64,000 nucleotides of DNA from Yoonia sediminilitoris (GTDB lineage Bacteria; Pseudomonadota; Alphaproteobacteria; Rhodobacterales; Rhodobacteraceae), in the NCBI RefSeq assembly GCF_003058085.1, contig NZ_QBUD01000003.1, positions 186,001 to 250,000 on the forward strand, written 5' to 3'. A model generated the notes under the pieces. It searched no databases, was not told where the DNA came from, and saw only the letters and a list, made by a program, of their open reading frames with translations. A program made the position numbers and the translations under genes. This document shows, piece by piece, positions 49,853 to 64,000 of the stretch (position 1 is its first letter; each line of letters opens with the position of its first letter).

Positions 49853-50632
49853 TCAGATAACGCGTTCGACCATCATCTTTTTGATATGGGCAATCGCCTT
49901 TGCCGGGTTCAGACCCTTCGGGCACGTCTTGGCGCAGTTCATGATAGTATGACAGCGATACAGTTTGAACGGATCTTCCAATTCGTCCAGACGCTCGCCT
50001 GTTGCCTCATCCCGGCTATCGATGATCCAGCGATAGGCGTGCAACAGGGCTGCTGGCCCAAGATAGCGGTCGCCGTTCCACCAATAAGATGGGCACGAAG
50101 TCGAGCAGGATGCGCACATCACACATTCATAGAGACCATCCAGCTTTTTGCGATCTTCGATTGATTGCTTCCACTCTTTGGCAGGGCGGTTTGTCTTGGT
50201 CTCAAGCCACGGCATGATTGACGCATGCTGGGCATAGAAATGCGTCAGATCGGGAATCAAATCCTTGATCACCGGCATATGGGGTAACGGATAGATTTTC
50301 ACGTCGCCCTTGATTTCATCCATTCCATAGATGCAGGCCAGCGTATTGATCCCGTCGATATTCATTGCACAAGACCCGCAAATCCCCTCGCGACAGGACC
50401 GGCGGAAGGTCAGGGTCGGGTCAATTTCGTTCTTGATCTTGATCAGCGCATCCAGAACCATCGGGCCGCAGTTATCCATATCAACGAAATAGGTATCCAG
50501 TGCGGGGTTCTTGTCGTCATCCGGGTTCCAGCGGTAGATCTGGACCTTGCGCAGATTAGTGGCCCCTTCCGGCTTTGGCCAGGTCTTGCCCGTCGTCATG
50601 CGCGAGTTCTTTGGAAGTGTCAGTTGTACCAT
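49853..50632 (-). CDS. sdhB: Succinate dehydrogenase iron-sulfur subunit
   Basis: Complex II electron-transfer subunit, 259 residues. The [2Fe-2S] ligands are in CREGICGSC and the later LAC; the [4Fe-4S] and [3Fe-4S] clusters use [16 protein letters not shown] and [17 protein letters not shown]. It is the last gene of the sdh operon and is separated from sdhA by two small lipoprotein genes, which is unusual compared with the standard sdhCDAB layout. Confidence 0.97.
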
Positions 50633-50967: not shown

Positions 50968-51305
50968 AGGGTGCCCAGCGCCCCCAGTATATTGCCCGCA
51001 GTCAGCGTCTTTTCTGCGATACAGCGCACCGACTCGGGGCGCTGCGCAATGCCAAGCACCAGTTGGGTGGTTTGCGTGGTGGACCCAACAACGGCGGCCT
51101 GTGCGATTTGCAGCACTTCCGCGCCCGTTGCATTGTCAATCACGCAGTCTGTCACCGGGCTGACGTCGACACCCGGATATTGGGCTGACAACACATTATT
51201 CACGACGCCTTTGGCCGTCTGCCGCGCAATCTGGTCGGCTTGTCCGGCCCCGTCTGCACAGGCTGCAAGGGCCAGCAGACCAACAGCGGCGATCAGTGCG
51301 CGCAT
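50964..51305 (-). CDS. Small lipoprotein in the sdh operon, first of two
   Basis: A protein of 113 residues with lipoprotein signal [16 protein letters not shown] (lipobox LAAC). The mature part is helical and has two cysteines (TDCVIDN and VRCIAEK) that may form a disulfide. No family is recognised. Its ATG overlaps the sdhA stop by one base, so its translation is coupled to the flavoprotein subunit. Confidence 0.72.
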   Translation of the reverse strand: MRALIAAVGLLALAACADGAGQADQIARQTAKGVVNNVLSAQYPGVDVSPVTDCVIDNATGAEVLQIAQAAVVGSTTQTTQLVLGIAQRPESVRCIAEKTLTAGNILGALGTL

Positions 51306-53110
51306 CAGAAAGTCCTTTCTTTTGGCGCAATCCGCGCCTCTGAAATACCACCCTCGGACTCTGTGGTCAGGGCTTCGGTTATGACCGGGCGGTAGCTCAG
51401 GTCTACCTTGGCCCCGTCGATGTGGCTGATGGTGTGCACCCGCCAGTTTTCATCGTCACGTGTGGCGTAATCCTCGTGCGCGTGCGCGCCACGGCTTTCC
51501 TTGCGCGCCTCGGCGCCAACGATCGTGGCCAGCGCGTTCGGCATCAGGTTGGTGAGTTCCAGCGTTTCCATCAGGTCGCTGTTCCAGACAAGGCTGCGGT
51601 CGGTGACAGACAGATCGTCCATCTTGCCCGCAATCGCCATCATCTTTTCAACGCCTTCGGCAAGGGTCTTGTCAGTACGGAACACAGCAGCATCGGCCTG
51701 CATCGCCTTTTGCATCTCAAGACGCAATTCAGCGGTTCCAACCGTCCCTTTCGCATGGCGCAAACCGTCGAAGCGGTCAAAGCATGCATCCACGGAAGCC
51801 TGATTCAGCGTTGGGTTCGGTGCATTCCGGTCCACGACCTCGCCCGCACGAATGGCCGCCGCCCGCCCAAAGACCACAAGGTCGATCAGCGAGTTGGACC
51901 CAAGGCGGTTGGCCCCATGCACCGATGCACACCCCGCCTCGCCCACAGCCATCAGGCCGGGCACAACGGCGTTTGGGTCCTTCTTGGTCGGGTTCAGAAC
52001 CTCGCCATGATAGTTCGTCGGAATACCGCCCATATTGTAGTGCACGGTCGGCAAAACAGGGATCGCTTCCTTGGTCACGTCAACGCCCGCAAAGATGCGC
52101 GCGCTTTCGGAAATCCCCGGCAAGCGCTCTGCCAAGGCTTCTTTGGGCAAGTGGTTCAGGTTCAGGTGAATATGGTCGCCATTGGTGCCTACACCGCGGC
52201 CTTCGCGAATTTCCATGGTCATGCAGCGGCTGACATAGTCGCGGGGGGCAAGGTCTTTGTAGTTGGGCGCGTAACGCTCCATGAACCGCTCACCTTCGGA
52301 GTTGGTCAGGTAGCCACCCTCGCCACGGGCCCCTTCGGTGATCAGGCAGCCCGCGCCATAAATACCGGTCGGGTGAAACTGGACAAATTCCATGTCCTGC
52401 AACGGCAGCCCCTGCCGCGCAACCATACCGCCACCGTCACCGGTGCAGGTGTGCGCAGACGTGGCGCTGAAATAGGCGCGGCCATAACCACCCGTTGCCA
52501 GAACAACAGTCTTGGCGTTGAACACATGCATGGTGCCATCGTCCAGCTTCCAGGCGATAACGCCCTGACAGACACCATCATCTGACATGATCAGATCAAG
52601 CGCAAAGTACTCGATGTAGAATTCAGCCTGCTGTTTCAGCGACTGGCCATAAAGAGTGTGCAAGATGGCGTGGCCGGTGCGGTCTGCAGCAGCACAGGTG
52701 CGCTGCACGGCGGGGCCTTCGCCAAATTCGGTGGTGTGGCCACCAAAGGGGCGCTGGTAAATCTTGCCTTCTTCGGTGCGGCTGAACGGCACGCCATAGT
52801 GTTCCAGCTCGTAAACCGCCTTGGGCGCTTCACGGGCAAGATATTCCATCGCATCCGTGTCACCCAGCCAGTCAGAGCCTTTGACCGTGTCATACATATG
52901 CCACTGCCAATGGTCAGGGCCCATGTTGGACAAGGACGCCGCGATGCCGCCTTGGGCCGCAACCGTGTGCGACCGTGTCGGGAACACCTTGGTGATACAG
53001 GCCGTCCGCAACCCCTGTTCGGCCAGACCCAGCGTTGCCCGCAGCCCAGCGCCACCAGCCCCTACAACAATCGCGTCATAGGTATGCGTTTCATATTCGT
53101 ATGCAGCCAT
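51305..53110 (-). CDS. sdhA: Succinate dehydrogenase flavoprotein subunit
   Basis: Complex II catalytic subunit, 601 residues, oxidising succinate to fumarate. [19 protein letters not shown] binds FAD and H48 in [10 protein letters not shown] is the covalent flavin-attachment residue. [21 protein letters not shown] and [19 protein letters not shown] are further hallmarks. It follows sdhD by 21 nt. Confidence 0.98.
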
Positions 53111-53131: not shown

Positions 53132-53503
53132 TTAAAGTGCGAGCCGGACGATTGCGAAAACCGCAAATGCCGCAGCCGAGTAAGAAAGGCAGATCATCGC
53201 AATGATGGTGATCTTGCGTGCCGTGCCATGAACGTAGTCTTCGATAAGGGTTTGCACACCCAGCCGGAAATGGAACCAGCCCACCAGCATCGTCAGGATC
53301 GCCACCACCGCCGGGAATGGACGCTGGTAATAGGCGACGACCTCTTCGTAGGGCGCGCCGAGGATCATGCCAAAGGTAAAGACGAAAAGGGGCATCAGCA
53401 CGATCAATGCCGCCGAAGACACCATCATTTTCCAATGATGTTCGGTCCCTGTTTTTGCGGAGCCCAGCCCCTCGGCGCGTTTACGGTCTGTCAGAAATGC
53501 CAT
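53132..53503 (-). CDS. sdhD: Succinate dehydrogenase membrane anchor subunit
   Basis: Hydrophobic anchor of complex II, 123 residues, three transmembrane helices (MMVSSAALIVLMPLFVFTFGM; FPAVVAILTMLVGWFHFRLG; ITIIAMICLSYSAAAFAVFAI). The segment GVQTLIEDYVHG carries the conserved histidine region used for haem or quinone binding. It lies 14 nt after sdhC. Confidence 0.93.
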   Translation of the reverse strand: MAFLTDRKRAEGLGSAKTGTEHHWKMMVSSAALIVLMPLFVFTFGMILGAPYEEVVAYYQRPFPAVVAILTMLVGWFHFRLGVQTLIEDYVHGTARKITIIAMICLSYSAAAFAVFAIVRLAL

Positions 53504-53517
53504 TGATCAATTCCCCC

Positions 53518-53901
53518 TTACAGCACGATGACAGTGAAGATGGTCATCAGCACAGCGGCGATCATCATCACCTGCCCGGCCATTTCCGACTTGTCGACAT
53601 CCAGCATGCGACCGCTGTCCCAGATCAAATGCCGGATACCGCCGAACATGTGATACCACAGCCCCAGTACCGAAAAGAACATGACCAGATCGCCGAACCA
53701 ACTGGTCAAGAAACCATTCGCGGTCGCATACGCCTCTGGCCCCGTTGCGGCGGCGACGAACCACCAGACAATCAACAATCCCGATATCAGTAGCGCGTTA
53801 CCGCTGATCCGAACAAGGATCGAGGTGATCGACGTCAGTTGCGGGCGGTAAATCTCAAGATGCGGCGAAAGCGGGCGATTGCCCCGGTTTACATCTGCCA
53901 T
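53518..53901 (-). CDS. sdhC: Succinate dehydrogenase cytochrome b556 subunit
   Basis: Haem-binding anchor of complex II, 127 residues with three membrane helices. RPLSPHLEIYRPQLTSITSILVRISG is the family start and HMFGGIRHLIWDSG contains the haem-ligand histidine. It is the first gene of the sdh operon; two operator-like palindromes lie about 140-170 bp upstream. Confidence 0.95.
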   Translation of the reverse strand: MADVNRGNRPLSPHLEIYRPQLTSITSILVRISGNALLISGLLIVWWFVAAATGPEAYATANGFLTSWFGDLVMFFSVLGLWYHMFGGIRHLIWDSGRMLDVDKSEMAGQVMMIAAVLMTIFTVIVL

Positions 53902-54042
53902 GTCTATTCCCTTCGTTGGCTGTTGCCGTCTTTAGAAAAACGACGCCTTGCGCCACTTTTGCACCATTCACACAGCAGAGTCACGCAGACGAAGGTGACT
54001 AAGGCGTGAAAAAAGGTCGCGTTTGTCACAATTTTTCCACCT

Positions 54043-54073
54043 TGTGATCACAGAAAATTTTCTTGTGATCACA
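54043..54073. promoter_or_regulatory. Tandem TGTGATCACA operator pair before sdhC
   Basis: Two identical 10-bp palindromes TGTGATCACA at 54043-54052 and 54064-54073, start to start 21 bp, so on the same face of the helix. They lie between sdhC (start 53901) and mch (end 54118). The same pair with the same 21-bp spacing occurs before sucC. A dimeric repressor or activator bound to both sites is likely. Confidence 0.7.
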
Positions 54074-54117: not shown

Positions 54118-55143
54118 TCAGAGCGGCATCAAAGCCCAATAGTCGAGGTCCAGCAGCACGTCAGGCGCATATTTGCCGTCATCGGTGCGCAGCACACCTG
54201 CCGCACCTTTGGTCGCCACCAGCCGCAGCCTGATTGCGCCGACACCTGCGACGGCAGTTTCAGCCAGCTCCAGCACCTCTGACCAAGCGCGTACAGTATC
54301 GCCGGCAAAACAAGGGTTTGCATGTGCACCTGCGTTTAGCGCCACAATCATCTGGGCATTTGCAAGCCCGTTGAATGACAGCGCGCGGGCCAGTGAAATC
54401 ACATGTCCTCCATAGATCAGGCGCTTACCGTCAGCCCGGTTTGTCGCATCAAAATGCACCTTGGACGTGTTTTGCCACAGCCGGGTAGCAAGCATATGTT
54501 CGGACTCTTCAACCGTGACCCCGTCCACATGGTCAATTACCTCGCCCACGGCATAGTCACGCAAGCGATGCGGTTCGCCCGCCAATGTCGCGTCATAGTC
54601 ATTGAAGTGCAGACCATCCGGCACCTGCAAGTCAGACGGCGCAATCGCCGGGGCAAGCGTGGGCACAACAGTCGCCGGGGCATCGCCCTCGCTCCGTTTG
54701 CGCACCATGACCCAGCGGACATAGCTCAGCACGTCAGCCCCATGCTGGTTGCGCCCTGTGGTGCGCACCCAGACCACGCCGGATTTCCCGTTCGAGTTTT
54801 GCTTAATTCCGATCACCTCTGACACTGACGTCAGCGTATCGCCCGGATAGACGGGAGCGAGCCAGCGCCCTTCGGCATAGCCCAGATTTGCGATGGCATT
54901 CAGCGAAACATCAGGAACGGTTTTGCCAAAGACAGTGTGAAAGGTGATCAGGTCATCCAGCGGCGATGCGGGTAGTCCGCAATTGCGCGCGAATTCATCG
55001 GACGAATAGAGCGCGCCGCGGGCCGGATAAAGCGCGTGATAGAGCGCCCGCTCGCCCCCTGACATGGTACGCGGCACCGCATGCGTGATGACGTCACCCA
55101 CCGCATAATCTTCAAAGAACCGGCCCGCGTTGGTCTTGGTCAT
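54118..55143 (-). CDS. mch: Mesaconyl-CoA hydratase (beta-methylmalyl-CoA dehydratase)
   Basis: Hydrates mesaconyl-C1-CoA to beta-methylmalyl-CoA in the ethylmalonyl-CoA pathway. It has 341 residues with two MaoC-like hot-dog domains. The N-terminus GRFFEDYAVGDVITHAVPRTMSGGERALYHALYP and FHTVFGKTVPDVSLNAIANLGYAEGRW are distinctive for Mch. It is last in a tight four-gene operon with mcl2, nnrU and a DUF1737 gene; its start overlaps the DUF1737 stop by 4 nt. Confidence 0.92.
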   Translation of the reverse strand: MTKTNAGRFFEDYAVGDVITHAVPRTMSGGERALYHALYPARGALYSSDEFARNCGLPASPLDDLITFHTVFGKTVPDVSLNAIANLGYAEGRWLAPVYPGDTLTSVSEVIGIKQNSNGKSGVVWVRTTGRNQHGADVLSYVRWVMVRKRSEGDAPATVVPTLAPAIAPSDLQVPDGLHFNDYDATLAGEPHRLRDYAVGEVIDHVDGVTVEESEHMLATRLWQNTSKVHFDATNRADGKRLIYGGHVISLARALSFNGLANAQMIVALNAGAHANPCFAGDTVRAWSEVLELAETAVAGVGAIRLRLVATKGAAGVLRTDDGKYAPDVLLDLDYWALMPL

Positions 55144-55346
55144 TGGTGGCCCAGCTTCATGTCTTTGTCGTATGGTTTTTCAATGTCCTTGGTCACGGCC
55201 TGCCCGCAGCGCATCACACCATTGGCCTGATCGAACGCATAAGTCGGATCACCGTACAGAACCCAGCCCTTTGACAGGGCTTCGGACACTTTGTGGCAAA
55301 AGGCCGATGTGTCGTCTTCGGTCAGAAGTCGGTATATTTTGGTCAT
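55140..55346 (-). CDS. DUF1737-family small protein
   Basis: A soluble protein of 68 residues, starting MTKIYRLLTEDDTSAFCHKVSEALSKGWVLYGDPT, which matches the DUF1737 pattern (hydrophobic strand, helix, then W-x-L-x-G). Start 55346 fits the family; an ATG eight codons upstream would overlap nnrU. It sits between nnrU and mch in the same operon. Function unknown. Confidence 0.8.
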   Translation of the reverse strand: MTKIYRLLTEDDTSAFCHKVSEALSKGWVLYGDPTYAFDQANGVMRCGQAVTKDIEKPYDKDMKLGHQ

Positions 55347-55347
55347 C

Positions 55348-55902
55348 TTAACCCCAAGGTGGTACGCCAAGCGCGTAGTGAATGCCCATCACGACAACAA
55401 CAACGACAATGGTAACGACGACTGCCGTGATCTCTTTCTTGACCGGCGCGCGCGGGGGGCGCTGCCATGGGCCTTCCTGCGCGTTGATGATCAGGATTTC
55501 GACAATGGCCCATATCAGCAAGCCACCGAACAAGATGAACGACGGCGAGTCCCCATTGACCAACAAATGCGAAACGGCCCAGATCGAAAAGCCTGTCAAC
55601 TGCGGGTGCCGGACTTTTGTGCCCAGCCAGATCTTTGCGCCCTTGGCAGCACTGGCGGCGTAGAAATAGAAGGCAACGATCATCAGCAGATTGTTGATGC
55701 CGACCATCGCCGGGCTCCGGCCCCAATAGAACGCCCCGTCAGCCGACCGATAGCCAAGCACCATCAAGACGATACTGAGGATAATCAACACTGCCATGAC
55801 CGGATAGCCTGCAGTCCCCAGACCGGCACGCACGCCGGGCAAAAGGCGTTTAAACAGATGCGCCGCCCACCATAGGGCAACCCCGGAGATCAAAAGTGTC
55901 AT
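55348..55902 (-). CDS. nnrU: NnrU-family membrane protein
   Basis: An integral membrane protein of 184 residues with about six helices. LWWAAHLFKRLLPGVRAGLG, VRHPQLTGFSIWAVSHLLVNGD and FILFGGLLIWAIVEILIIN are typical of NnrU, originally linked to nitrate and nitrite respiration. No denitrification genes are visible here; the gene is part of the mcl2-mch operon, overlapping mcl2 by 4 nt. Confidence 0.88.
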   Translation of the reverse strand: MTLLISGVALWWAAHLFKRLLPGVRAGLGTAGYPVMAVLIILSIVLMVLGYRSADGAFYWGRSPAMVGINNLLMIVAFYFYAASAAKGAKIWLGTKVRHPQLTGFSIWAVSHLLVNGDSPSFILFGGLLIWAIVEILIINAQEGPWQRPPRAPVKKEITAVVVTIVVVVVVMGIHYALGVPPWG

Positions 55903-56741
55903 GCGCTCTCCAATTCAGAAATGGCTTCGGCTTTGGCCAAAGTCGCCCGCGCGGTCACGATATGCAAGTTTTCAACGATCCGCCCGTCAACGACAGCGAC
56001 CCCCTGCCCTGCGGCCTCTGCCGCTTCAAAGGCTTCGATTTGCCGTTGGGCCAGCGCGATTTCCTCCTCTGTGGGGGCAAAAGCGGCATTGGCGATGGCA
56101 ACTTGCGCCGGATGTATCAGCGTCTTGCCATCAAAACCCAGATCGCGCCCTTCGGCGCATTCGGCACGCAGACCATCATCATCCTTGAAGGCGTTGTAAA
56201 CACCGTCAAGCGCCACGATCCCCGCCGCTTTTGCAGCAAGGATGCATAATTGCAGGGACGTCATCAGGGCTGCACGGCTGCGCGAGTTCAAGTCCTTTGC
56301 CAGATCATTGGTCCCCAGAACAAAACCGGCGATCCTTGGATGATTCGCTATTTCGGCTGCATTCAGGATGCCTTGCGGTGTCTCCATCATGGCCCAGATC
56401 GGCAATTCGGGCACAAGGGCGGCCAAGGCATCTACATCCTTGGTGCTGTTGACCTTGGGCAACAAAATCGCGTCGCAGTCCATCGCCGCGACCGCCGCAG
56501 CATCAGCCGCGCCCCATTCGGTATCAAGTCCGTTGATCCGGACAATGCGCAGGCGCACGCCATAACCGTCGTCTGCGAGTGCTGCGGTCAGCGTGTCGCG
56601 GGCCGAGACCTTGGCATCGGGGGCAACAGCGTCTTCAAGATCAAAAAGGATAACATCAACGGGCAAGCCTCGCGCTTTCTCCAATGCGCGATCTTTCGAC
56701 CCGGGAATATAAAGGGCGGAGCGGTAGGGACGGGCCAACAC
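55899..56741 (-). CDS. mcl2: (3S)-malyl-CoA thioesterase, HpcH/HpaI-citrate lyase family
   Basis: Hydrolyses (3S)-malyl-CoA to malate, ending the ethylmalonyl-CoA pathway. It has 280 residues. RPYRSALYIPGSKDRALEKARGLPVDVILFDLEDAVAPDAK is close to the Mcl2 type rather than to the longer Mcl1 lyase. ILLPKVNS, METPQGILNAAEI and LGTNDLAKDL are CitE-fold motifs. It starts with GTG (56741) after GAGGAAG and leads the mcl2-nnrU-DUF1737-mch operon. A general citrate-lyase-like role is the alternative. Confidence 0.85.
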   Translation of the reverse strand: MLARPYRSALYIPGSKDRALEKARGLPVDVILFDLEDAVAPDAKVSARDTLTAALADDGYGVRLRIVRINGLDTEWGAADAAAVAAMDCDAILLPKVNSTKDVDALAALVPELPIWAMMETPQGILNAAEIANHPRIAGFVLGTNDLAKDLNSRSRAALMTSLQLCILAAKAAGIVALDGVYNAFKDDDGLRAECAEGRDLGFDGKTLIHPAQVAIANAAFAPTEEEIALAQRQIEAFEAAEAAGQGVAVVDGRIVENLHIVTARATLAKAEAISELESA

Positions 56742-59235: not shown

Positions 59236-60252
59236 CTAAGGCTGCGGGCGCTGCCCACCATGCATAAGTGCGGTGATGCCTTGCTTGTGCTCCGAAAGCC
59301 ACAGATCAACAGACGCATTGGTCAGATCAATTGCTTCACCGGGAAAATATGTGGCAAGCGCCTGCGTCACATCAAATGGCGGTCTTTGCAGCAAACCAAG
59401 TTCAGCCAACGCCGCGTAATCAGGCTGTTTGAGCCGGTCGTGCAACGCATCCGCCTCTGCCGGATCAGCCAAAAGCGCCGCCACCTGTCGCTTTCGATGC
59501 GGTGCGGGCGGCATTCCGTCATGATTGGCGAACGCATCCGCCATCCGCATCATTTTGAAGATCCAATGCCGAGTCGTAAGCCCCTCGAAATGCAGCAGTT
59601 CGACCGTGTCCGGTGCAATTCGCTTCACCGTCGGCCCATCATCAGCCAACGCTGCCTTTGGCCGATGGATCGAAAGCCGTAGGTCCCGGCCCGTCCGAAC
59701 GAAACATTTTCCCTGCGTATGCCCGGTCAGGCCGCGATTTGTCAGGTCGTAGTCTTTTCCGAAGGTGGCCCGCCCTTGCGCCTTTTTGCCCGGAAACGGA
59801 CGCCGAAAGGCCCCGGTCAGAAACGTTGGTTGCATATCCGGCGCACTGATCCGTTCAGCGACGGACAAGGCGCAACAATCCGTTTCATCATCCACCTCAG
59901 AAAGATAGTCTCCCAATTGCTCCTGCGTCCAAACGAACTCGTCCGCGTCACAATGCAAGAGCCAATCGCTTTGGCACAGACTGTAGGCATGGCGCGCATT
60001 GCGCATCTGACGCACCTCGTGCCGGTGTGGCCGTTTACAACCCAGATTGCGCCAATATGCTGCACCGCAAGCCGTTACTTGAACCTGTGGCAAATGGGAA
60101 AACAACGATTGCACCGGGTCATCTGGCCGGTCACAAAAGAGATTCACGGCAGTTGCGCCCAGTGACAGGTGCCACGCAACAAAGGCCTGTACCAACGCAG
60201 GTGGTTCATCAACCGTCGCGACAACGGCCCAACTATCAGCTTTGATACCCAT
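59236..60252 (-). CDS. Family 2-like glycosyltransferase
   Basis: A protein of 338 residues. [26 protein letters not shown] is the nucleotide-sugar-binding start, and [14 protein letters not shown] contains the DxD metal-binding motif. This type occurs in roseobacters as a single, cytoplasmic enzyme; acceptor and sugar unknown. Start 60252 ([10 protein letters not shown]) is chosen by family resemblance; an ATG at 60312 is possible. Neither has a strong ribosome site. It is divergent from sucC. Confidence 0.75.
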
Positions 60253-60326
60253 TTTTGGAAAGCTACCAGTCAAACGAATCTTTTCAAACCGTTCAATTCC
60301 ATGAAAAAGCATCCGAGCTTCATTTT

Positions 60327-60357
60327 TGTGATCACACCCTGAAAAACTGTGATCACA
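60327..60357. promoter_or_regulatory. Tandem TGTGATCACA operator pair before sucC
   Basis: Palindromes TGTGATCACA at 60327-60336 and 60348-60357, again 21 bp apart start to start, in the gap between the divergent glycosyltransferase and sucC (ATG 60456). The second is about 100 bp upstream of sucC. They match the sdhC pair in sequence and spacing. Confidence 0.7.
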
Positions 60358-60455: not shown

Positions 60456-61649
60456 ATGAACATCCACGAATATCAGGCCAAAGCGCTCCTTGCCAGTTTT
60501 GGTGCCCCTGTTTCCGACGGCCGCGCCGTTTTGAAAGCGGAAGACGCGAAAACAGCCGCAGGCGAACTTGATGGCCCTCTCTGGGTGGTCAAGGCGCAAA
60601 TCCACGCGGGCGGTCGCGGCAAAGGCAAATTCAAAGAAGCCGACGCAGGCGAGGCCGGCGGTGTGCGCCTGACCAAATCCGTGTCAGAGGCGGCGGAAGA
60701 AGCCAAGAAAATGCTGGGCCGCACGCTGGTAACGCACCAGACCGGCCCCGCTGGCAAGCAGGTCAACCGTGTTTATATCGAGGATGGGGCCGGCATTGAG
60801 ACTGAAATGTACCTTGCACTGCTGGTCGATCGCCAGACCAGCCGCGTGGGCTTTGTCTGCTCGACCGAAGGCGGCATGGACATTGAAGAAGTCGCGGCAA
60901 ACACGCCCGAGAAAATCCTGAACTTCACCGTCGATCCCGCGACCGGTTATCAGCCGTTCCATGGCCGTCGCGTGGCCTTTGCCCTTGGGTTGACCGGCGG
61001 GCAGGTCAAACAATGCGTCAATCTGATGGGGCTTCTTTACAAAGCCTTCATCGAAAAAGACATGGAGATGCTGGAAATCAACCCGCTGATCATCACCGAC
61101 AAGGGCGATTTGAAGGTGCTGGATGCAAAAGTGTCCTTCGACGGCAACGCGGTCTATCGCCACGCCGACGTGGCCGCCCTGCGCGACGAAACCGAAGAAG
61201 ACCCCAAGGAACTCGCGGCCTCCAAGTATGACCTGAACTACATCGCGCTGGATGGTGAAATCGGCTGCATGGTCAACGGTGCGGGCCTTGCCATGGCGAC
61301 GATGGACATCATTAAGCTTTACGGCGCCGAGCCTGCCAACTTCCTTGATGTGGGCGGTGGTGCGACCAAGGAAAAAGTGACAGAGGCGTTCAAGATCATC
61401 ACTTCTGACCCGCAGGTCAAAGGCATTCTGGTCAACATCTTCGGAGGCATCATGCGCTGCGACGTGATTGCAGAAGGCGTTGTGTCGGCTGTCAAAGAGG
61501 TTGGTTTGAAAGTGCCGCTTGTCGTGCGTCTGGAAGGCACAAACGTCGAAAAAGGCAAAGAGATCATCAACAACTCCGGCCTCGATGTTATTGCCGCCGA
61601 CGACCTGAAAGACGGCGCGCAGAAAATCGTGAAGGCCGTGAAAGGATAG
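60456..61649 (+). CDS. sucC: Succinyl-CoA synthetase beta subunit
   Basis: TCA-cycle enzyme subunit of 397 residues with an N-terminal ATP-grasp domain ([34 protein letters not shown]) and a C-terminal CoA-ligase part ([30 protein letters not shown]). Start 60456 is the canonical MNIHEYQ; the frame extends upstream through the operator pair without a ribosome site. sucD follows 82 nt downstream. Confidence 0.97.
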
Positions 61650-61731
61650 TACGGCTTGCGGGTGTTACCCCGCAACGTACGTGATCGCGGACACACACCC
61701 GCACTACATAAGATTTTCCAAGGAGGCCCAA

Positions 61732-62613
61732 ATGGCCATTCTCGTAAACGAAAACACCAAAGTCATCTGTCAGGGCCTCACCGGCTCACAGGGGACATTC
61801 CACTCTGAACAGGCCATTGCCTATGGCACCAAAATGGTCGGTGGCGTGACCCCCGGCAAGGGTGGGCAGACCCATCTGGACCTGCCGATCTTCAACTCGG
61901 TTCACGAGGCGATGCACGCAACCGAAGCCAACGCATCGGTCATCTATGTCCCTCCACCCTTTGCAGCGGATTCAATCCTCGAGGCGATTGACGCCGAAAT
62001 GGAACTGATCATCTGCATCACCGAAGGCATCCCCGTGCTGGACATGATGAAGGTCAAGCGCGCACTGGAAGGGTCCAAATCGCGCCTGATCGGCCCCAAC
62101 TGCCCCGGTATCATCACGCCCGACGCATGCAAAATCGGCATCATGCCTGGCCACATCCACAAGCGCGGGTCGGTCGGCGTTGTGTCCCGTTCCGGTACGC
62201 TGACTTATGAAGCGGTCAAGCAGACATCAGATTCCGGCCTTGGCCAGTCTACTGCTGTGGGCATCGGCGGCGACCCCATCAAAGGGACGGAGCATATCGA
62301 TGTGCTCGACATGTTCTTGGACGATGACGAAACCCATTCCATGATCATGATCGGGGAAATCGGTGGTTCCGCCGAAGAAGAGGCCGCTGAATTCCTGACC
62401 GCCCAAAAGAAAAAGGGCCGCTGGAAACCCGTCGCCGGTTTCATCGCCGGACGCACCGCCCCTCCGGGTCGTCGCATGGGCCACGCCGGCGCGATTGTTG
62501 CCGGCGGCAAAGGCGACGCGGAAAGCAAGATCGAAGCGATGAAAGCCGCCGGGATCATTGTTGCCGACAGCCCCGCAACGCTTGGCGAGGCTGTACTGGA
62601 AGCGATTGGCTAG
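61732..62613 (+). CDS. sucD: Succinyl-CoA synthetase alpha subunit
   Basis: A subunit of 293 residues. [29 protein letters not shown] binds CoA; the phosphorylated histidine lies in [23 protein letters not shown] is placed 6-12 nt before ATG 61732, a very strong site. It works with sucC and precedes sucA. Confidence 0.97.
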
Positions 62614-62958: not shown

Positions 62959-64000
62959 ATGAACGACCAATCTCCTAATGATGTCTACCACGCCTCCTCA
63001 TTCTTGCAGGGGCACAATGCTGAATATGTCGAACAGCTTTACGCCCGTTACGCCGACAATCCCGGCGCGGTAGATGAAAGCTGGCAGGCGTTTTTCCGGT
63101 CATTGGGTGACACGCCTGCGGATGCCAAGGCAGAGGCCTTAGGCCCATCATGGAGCCGGATGGACTGGCCGCCTGTTCCCAATGATGACCTGACCGCAGC
63201 GCTTGACGGGCAATGGCCAGCCGAACCGGAAGCGGCAGGCAAGAAGATCAAGGAAAAGGCCGCCGAAAAAGGCGTGAGCCTTGATGAAACGCAAGTGCGC
63301 GCCGCTGTGCTGGACAGTATCCGCGCGCTGATGATCATTCGTGCCTACCGGATCAGGGGCCATCTGATTGCCGACCTTGACCCCCTGGGCATGCGCGCAA
63401 ACACGCCCCATCCAGAGCTTGACCCGGCGTCCTATGGCTTTACCGCCGCCGACATGGACCGGCCCATTTTCATCGACAATGTGCTGGGTCTTGAAGTCGC
63501 TACGATGAACGAAATTCTGGCGATTGTGCAGCGGACTTATTGCGGCACTTTCGCCCTGCAATATATGCATATTTCCAACCCGGCAGAGGCAGGTTGGCTG
63601 AAAGAACGGATCGAAGGTTACGGCAAGGAAATCGCCTTTACCAAGGAAGGCCGCAAGGCGATCCTGAACTCGCTGGTCGAGGCTGAGGGATTCGAGAAAT
63701 TTCTGCACGTCAAATATATGGGGACCAAACGGTTCGGCCTTGATGGCGGCGAAAGCCTGATCCCCGCGATGGAACAGATCATCAAGCGCGGCGGGCAGCT
63801 GGGGCTTGATGAAATCGTGATCGGGATGCCCCACCGTGGGCGCCTGTCGGTCCTGGCCAACGTGATGGAAAAGCCCTACCGCGCCATTTTCAACGAATTT
63901 CAGGGCGGGTCTTTCAAGCCCGAAGATGTCGACGGCTCCGGTGATGTGAAATACCACCTTGGCGCATCCAGCGACCGCGCATTTGACGACAACACCGTGC
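62959..64000 (+). CDS. sucA: 2-oxoglutarate dehydrogenase E1 component, N-terminal part
   Basis: Thiamine-diphosphate enzyme of the TCA cycle. The first 347 residues are in the window: the typical start MNDQSPNDVYHASSFLQGHNAEYVEQLYARY, then MIIRAYRIRGHLIADLDPLGM, and KRFGLDGGESLIPAMEQIIKRGG with GMPHRGRLSVLANVMEKP, the beginning of the catalytic domain. The gene runs off the right edge, where sucB would be expected. Confidence 0.95.
   Translation, partial: MNDQSPNDVYHASSFLQGHNAEYVEQLYARYADNPGAVDESWQAFFRSLGDTPADAKAEALGPSWSRMDWPPVPNDDLTAALDGQWPAEPEAAGKKIKEKAAEKGVSLDETQVRAAVLDSIRALMIIRAYRIRGHLIADLDPLGMRANTPHPELDPASYGFTAADMDRPIFIDNVLGLEVATMNEILAIVQRTYCGTFALQYMHISNPAEAGWLKERIEGYGKEIAFTKEGRKAILNSLVEAEGFEKFLHVKYMGTKRFGLDGGESLIPAMEQIIKRGGQLGLDEIVIGMPHRGRLSVLANVMEKPYRAIFNEFQGGSFKPEDVDGSGDVKYHLGASSDRAFDDNTV

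Follow-up and report, generated by a model that had tools for sequence, protein, structure and literature searches.

The window, by which we mean the whole 64-kb stretch of DNA analyzed here, carries the sdhCDAB and sucCD genes of Yoonia sediminilitoris, and a tandem pair of the palindrome TGTGATCACA lies upstream of each set.

49853..50632, minus strand: sdhB (Pfam Fer2_3 and Fer4 domains)
51305..53110, minus strand: sdhA (Pfam FAD_binding_2 and Succ_DH_flav_C)
53132..53503, minus strand: sdhD (Pfam Sdh_cyt, 3.2e-14)
53518..53901, minus strand: sdhC (Pfam Sdh_cyt, 8.2e-27)
53979..53984, minus strand: GTGACT, putative -35 element for sdh at offset 58 relative to the promoter-proximal palindrome, proposed from GTGAC[AT] in the sdh promoters of relatives
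54043..54052, unstranded: TGTGATCACA, promoter-proximal palindrome of the sdh pair (exact match)
54064..54073, unstranded: TGTGATCACA, distal palindrome of the sdh pair, 21 bp from the proximal one (exact match)
59236..60312, minus strand: glycosyltransferase-like gene, divergent, in the sucC intergenic region (Pfam Glyco_tranf_2_4, 7.3e-16)
60327..60336, unstranded: TGTGATCACA, distal palindrome of the suc pair (exact match)
60348..60357, unstranded: TGTGATCACA, promoter-proximal palindrome of the suc pair (exact match)
60456..61649, plus strand: sucC (Pfam ATP-grasp_2, 2.4e-70, and Ligase_CoA)
61681..62613 (ORF as listed), plus strand: sucD (Pfam CoA_binding and Ligase_CoA)
62959..64000, plus strand: sucA, first part (ORF named by eye)

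The true start of sucD is probably slightly downstream of the listed ORF start. Past the window end, sucB and then lpd follow; sucA, sucB and lpd (ORFs named by eye) run in the same direction as sucCD, and no separate pair was found for sucA, which lies downstream of sucCD. Between the sdh and suc clusters, the minus strand of 54118-56741 holds a hydratase-like ORF and a CitE/malyl-CoA-lyase-like ORF, both named from weak NCBIfam matches below the cut-off.

The four copies of TGTGATCACA begin at 54043, 54064, 60327 and 60348, exactly as an earlier note on this DNA had claimed. Its start-to-start spacing of 21 bp holds for the sdh pair and the suc pair alike, and it was right that the window has no other copy, as zero further exact matches were found. 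Four copies compare with 0.07 expected in the 64-kb window, and none of 100 dinucleotide-preserving shuffles of the window gave four. All four sites contain the core GTGATCAC. The nearer palindrome of each pair lies 141 bp from the sdhC start codon and 98 bp from the sucC ATG (60456), respectively. In the whole genome of 4,668,162 bases, the TGTGATCACA 10-mer occurs at eight places, four of which are the window sites; three of the four single copies elsewhere sit within ORFs (loci L001, L002 and L007). The fourth (L008:1501-1510; C13:32840 in the genome) lies about 90 bp upstream of an ORF with iron-sulphur-type cysteines, a possible extra target. Random scatter of the pair, named in the same note as evidence against a regulatory role, was not observed in the 4.67-Mb genome: a search for 21-bp pairs with up to three mismatches returned the two places in the window only, and the reversed control returned none.

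The pair is also conserved. In a family set of 199 genomes, each at least 90% complete and essentially one per genus, the 21-bp pair with two mismatches or fewer was present in 165, and the reversed control pattern in none. When the loci of 30 relatives were retrieved and the placements checked from start codons and by regular expression, the pair stood before sucC in 22, before sdhC in seven, and before a sucA-like ORF in one (G157), so that the predicted retention upstream of sdhC and sucC in relatives was indeed found. One relative, G175, has a triple palindrome at 21-bp spacing before sucC (C6:255056-255107). In another, G037, a third pair is located about 120 bp before the fumarase C gene (L082:6293-6322; C16:228292), indicating that the regulon can reach further around the TCA cycle. 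Class-wide, the pair was detected in five of 289 genomes, and outside the family in one of 284 (G324, from another family). In G324, it lies at L147:991-1021, directly upstream of a GntR/FCD gene that is divergent from an ORF resembling a TonB receptor, and a third, degenerate palindrome is found upstream of the pair.

We then considered which protein might bind these sites. RSP_0981 and AkgR of Rhodobacter sphaeroides, which we take to be the same gene, define a regulon reportedly described by Imam et al. in 2015. In the accessible text of one paper, the GntR protein RSP_0981 is predicted to control succinyl-CoA synthetase, succinate dehydrogenase and oxoglutarate dehydrogenase (PMC4344238); in that of another, GTGATCAC is cited among the sites of AkgR, which is called an activator (PMC6365646). 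The GntR class, the activator role, the GTGATCAC site and the target operons are taken from these sources, to the extent of their accessible text, and regulator, palindrome and target operons are already in print for R. sphaeroides. A literature search for TGTGATCACA gave no title recognizably on topic, and searches on GntR and the TCA cycle and on Rhodobacteraceae GntR and sdhC gave no obvious further description, as judged from the listings.

A profile search of the genome yielded 25 PF00392 (GntR) matches. None of them falls in the window, and a regulator within the window near sdhB was rejected on this ground. When the loci of 20 relatives were searched with all 25 GntR proteins of the genome, one of them, G046, was found to have a GntR gene, located two ORFs past sdhB; we liken this relative to R. 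sphaeroides. The best match of the G046 gene in the Y. sediminilitoris genome, with 75% identity (the next has 30%), is the following gene.

C3:257678-258331, minus strand, 7.7 kb past the window end: akgR orthologue (probable), 218 aa, with GntR and FCD domains

From its sequence, the product is probably the AkgR orthologue. Its nearest named relatives, among the matches listed, belong to Yoonia and Loktanella. In the best 80 of 262 named near relatives, lpd lies within 6 kb of akgR in 67 and sucB in 65, and sdhB in none. The nearest solved sequence relative of the protein is McbR of Escherichia coli (PDB 4p9f, E 5.7e-18), which is likewise a GntR/FCD protein but distant, with other recognized DNA and other targets.

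The distribution of the gene follows that of the motif. Strong akgR matches, defined by E <=1e-79 (weakest included, G163 at 4.4e-80; next best value, 5e-47), were obtained in 179 of the 199 family genomes. A free-spacing search for exact GTGATCAC cores separated by a gap of 3-33 bases, run after pairs at 20 bp had been seen, also detected a pair in 179 of the 199: 177 of the 179 genomes with the gene had one, versus two of the 20 without it. The free-spacing pair was thus absent from 18/20 genomes without the gene and 2/179 with it (Fisher 2e-21), and the strict 21-bp pair from 18/20 and 16/179 (Fisher 2e-14), both values being overstated because related genomes are not independent. The exceptions are G035 and G139, with the gene and no core pair, and G018 and G105, with a pair and no strong gene match, both fragmented assemblies. 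Four of the 20 gene-negative genomes gave intermediate matches (1e-37 to 1e-47), which might be diverged or cut akgR copies. We sought sdhA in 30 of the 36 genomes lacking the gene or the strict pair and found it in 26. Among the 16 gene-negative genomes with sdhA, a pair before sdhC was present in G105 only; the best candidate in each of the other 15 has at least seven mismatches. On an SdhA tree of a chosen subset (46 rows: these 26 sdhA-positive genomes, 19 with the pair, and Y. sediminilitoris), absence of the gene is scattered, with 10 changes, at least six of which are forced by well-supported branches.

The spacing within the pair is nearly fixed. At 75 plus-strand places among the free-spacing matches listed, it is 21 bp in 62, 20 bp in six and another value in seven. 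Four relatives that seemingly lacked a pair before sdhC have one there at 20-bp spacing, and two further relatives have one at 21 bp with three mismatches; in four relatives carrying the gene (G135, G163, G178 and G053), no clear pair was seen upstream of sdhC. The strict 20-21-bp tandem, as read from these sequences, is possibly new.

A palindrome also occurs at the start of the regulator gene. Of 79 akgR loci (from the best 80 of 262 named relatives, one being without upstream DNA), 62 have a palindrome with no more than one mismatch, in every case roughly 12 to 67 bases upstream of the matched akgR start; it is missing in the other 17. Elsewhere in the same loci, the background is 12 in 894,247 positions, or about 0.006 per 420 bases. 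When the 25 GntR loci of Y. sediminilitoris were scanned for the exact motif, none had a palindrome at its start, yet a site with one mismatch, TGTAATCACA, was later seen at its own akgR (C3:258334-258343), 3 bases before the TTG start. The 140 bases preceding akgR in G046 show no recognizable palindrome. One of the seven odd-spaced pairs, in G166, lies about 43 bp before the akgR of that genome. The co-conserved GntR-type gene that the earlier note had proposed to look for therefore exists: it tracks the motif, and in most near relatives a palindrome stands at its start. Together with the conservation of the pairs, it supports the note's idea of one DNA-binding protein for both operons, as far as sequence comparison can tell.

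In our view, the AkgR orthologue of this roseobacter, a GntR/FCD regulator, very probably uses the pairs as tandem operators. This assignment is based on sequence (the sites, their conservation, the co-occurrence with the gene and the palindrome at the gene) and on the printed record. As in the AkgR/RSP_0981 regulon, according to the accessible accounts of it, a GntR-family regulator is combined with the GTGATCAC palindrome and with sdh, sucCD and the oxoglutarate dehydrogenase genes as targets: the pairs stand before sdhC and sucC, with sucA, sucB and lpd behind sucCD. The present case differs in genus and in the place of the gene, beyond lpd instead of near sdhB; sequence comparison contributes two further features, the spacing of the tandem and the palindrome at the start of akgR.

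It is improbable that the pairs are bound by a different regulator, such as a GntR paralogue of the same genome, to which the AkgR orthologue is merely similar. The genome does have 25 GntR matches, and palindromic sites are common to GntR proteins: in the accessible text, PS417_07240 of Pseudomonas simiae, a GntR-like protein 32% identical to AkgR, is also proposed to act on GTGATCAC, whereas this regulator of a deoxyribonate cluster has a single palindrome at its own operon and other targets, with no TCA operons among those given there (PMC6365646). The sole pair-bearing genome outside the family, G324, has its pair directly before its own GntR/FCD gene. The AkgR candidate, however, both tracks the motif and has it at its own start. 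A control paralogue, L018, the one among the 25 matches compared in this way, has a strong orthologue in only two of the 199 genomes (G000 and G172) and is ruled out, since the pair is found in 165 of them.

Binding by a CRP/FNR-type protein is very unlikely. The CRP consensus half-sites are TGTGA and TCACA, which the half-site letters resemble, but in all pairs seen these are joined into a 10-bp palindrome without the 6-bp separation of CRP/FNR half-sites, which bears out the earlier judgement that CRP is a poor fit. Nor is R. sphaeroides predicted, in the text accessible, to possess a CRP analogue (PMC4344238). We give just as little weight to CceR, a LacI-type regulator of central carbon metabolism: it is predicted or reported on succinate dehydrogenase in R. 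sphaeroides, but its predicted motif in the same accessible text, a GTT-N6-8-AAC inverted repeat, does not fit TGTGATCACA (PMC4344238). CceR may act elsewhere in the sdh and suc promoters. Chance, which the single palindromes inside coding ORFs (L001, L002 and L007) also illustrate, or a non-regulatory repeat is already refuted as the origin of the pairs by their uniqueness in the genome, their conservation in the family and their placement before sucC and sdhC, and the shuffles (0/100), the reversed control (0/199) and the fixed location and spacing leave it a negligible probability.

We also examined the geometry of the promoters. The sigma-70 scan was noisy, and the GTGAC[AT] element was chosen from it by eye. 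Among 37 distinct sdh promoters, 28 have this element 56-59 bases downstream of the proximal palindrome and four have it at off-cluster offsets of 47, 68, 77 and 78; it is absent in five. Where two matches were present (3/32 sdh promoters), the farther one was taken, and the offset of 68 (L063) depends on this choice. The distance from GTGAC[AT] to the start codon of the sdh promoters is much looser (standard deviation 15.7). The four off-cluster shifts are close to whole turns of the helix, four cases being too few to test this formally. Among 40 suc promoters, 37 have the palindrome 96-115 bases upstream of the start and three have it at 129-149; many carry a T-rich element at +46 to +48, about one turn nearer than the element at sdh. 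The suc promoter of Y. sediminilitoris itself showed no convincing -35 or -10 and no clear T-rich element in the sigma-70 scan. From these elements, start sites would lie about 80-95 bases after the palindrome, and the putative promoters would place the palindromes at roughly -97/-118 (sdh) and -87/-108 (suc). Retention of the putative sdh promoter at steps of about 10 bp from the tandem is possibly new as well.

These observations suggest a mechanism in which one AkgR dimer would occupy each 10-bp palindrome, and two dimers, bound to one face of the DNA with two helical turns between them, would lie upstream of the promoters of sdhC and sucC, jointly activating sdhCDAB and sucCD-sucAB-lpd. 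Through this joint activation, the succinyl-CoA-to-fumarate part of the TCA cycle and oxoglutarate dehydrogenase would answer to one signal. Two dimers per promoter, positioned upstream, would fit the activator role, and the lone palindrome at the akgR start suggests negative autoregulation. The name AkgR alone hints at 2-oxoglutarate as the effector. The suc pair (60327-60357) starts about 15 bp from the glycosyltransferase-like ORF, which runs away from it; at this distance from its start, AkgR binding could affect that gene too, making it a possible bystander target. More tentatively, and with somewhat less than even confidence, we propose that AkgR is a fixed-geometry activator using tandem operators, with dimers 20-21 bp apart, about one hundred bases upstream and on one helical face, paired sites serving activation and the lone akgR site self-repression. 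One helical face is proposed because the sdh promoter distance, where changed, shifts in whole turns.

Taken together, the results would place the published AkgR regulon across almost the whole family, and the regulator gene can be named in the Y. sediminilitoris genome. Regulator and operator appear to have been lost together several times. The conserved tandem spacing and promoter phase may provide a simple, testable rule for a GntR/FCD protein that activates instead of repressing.
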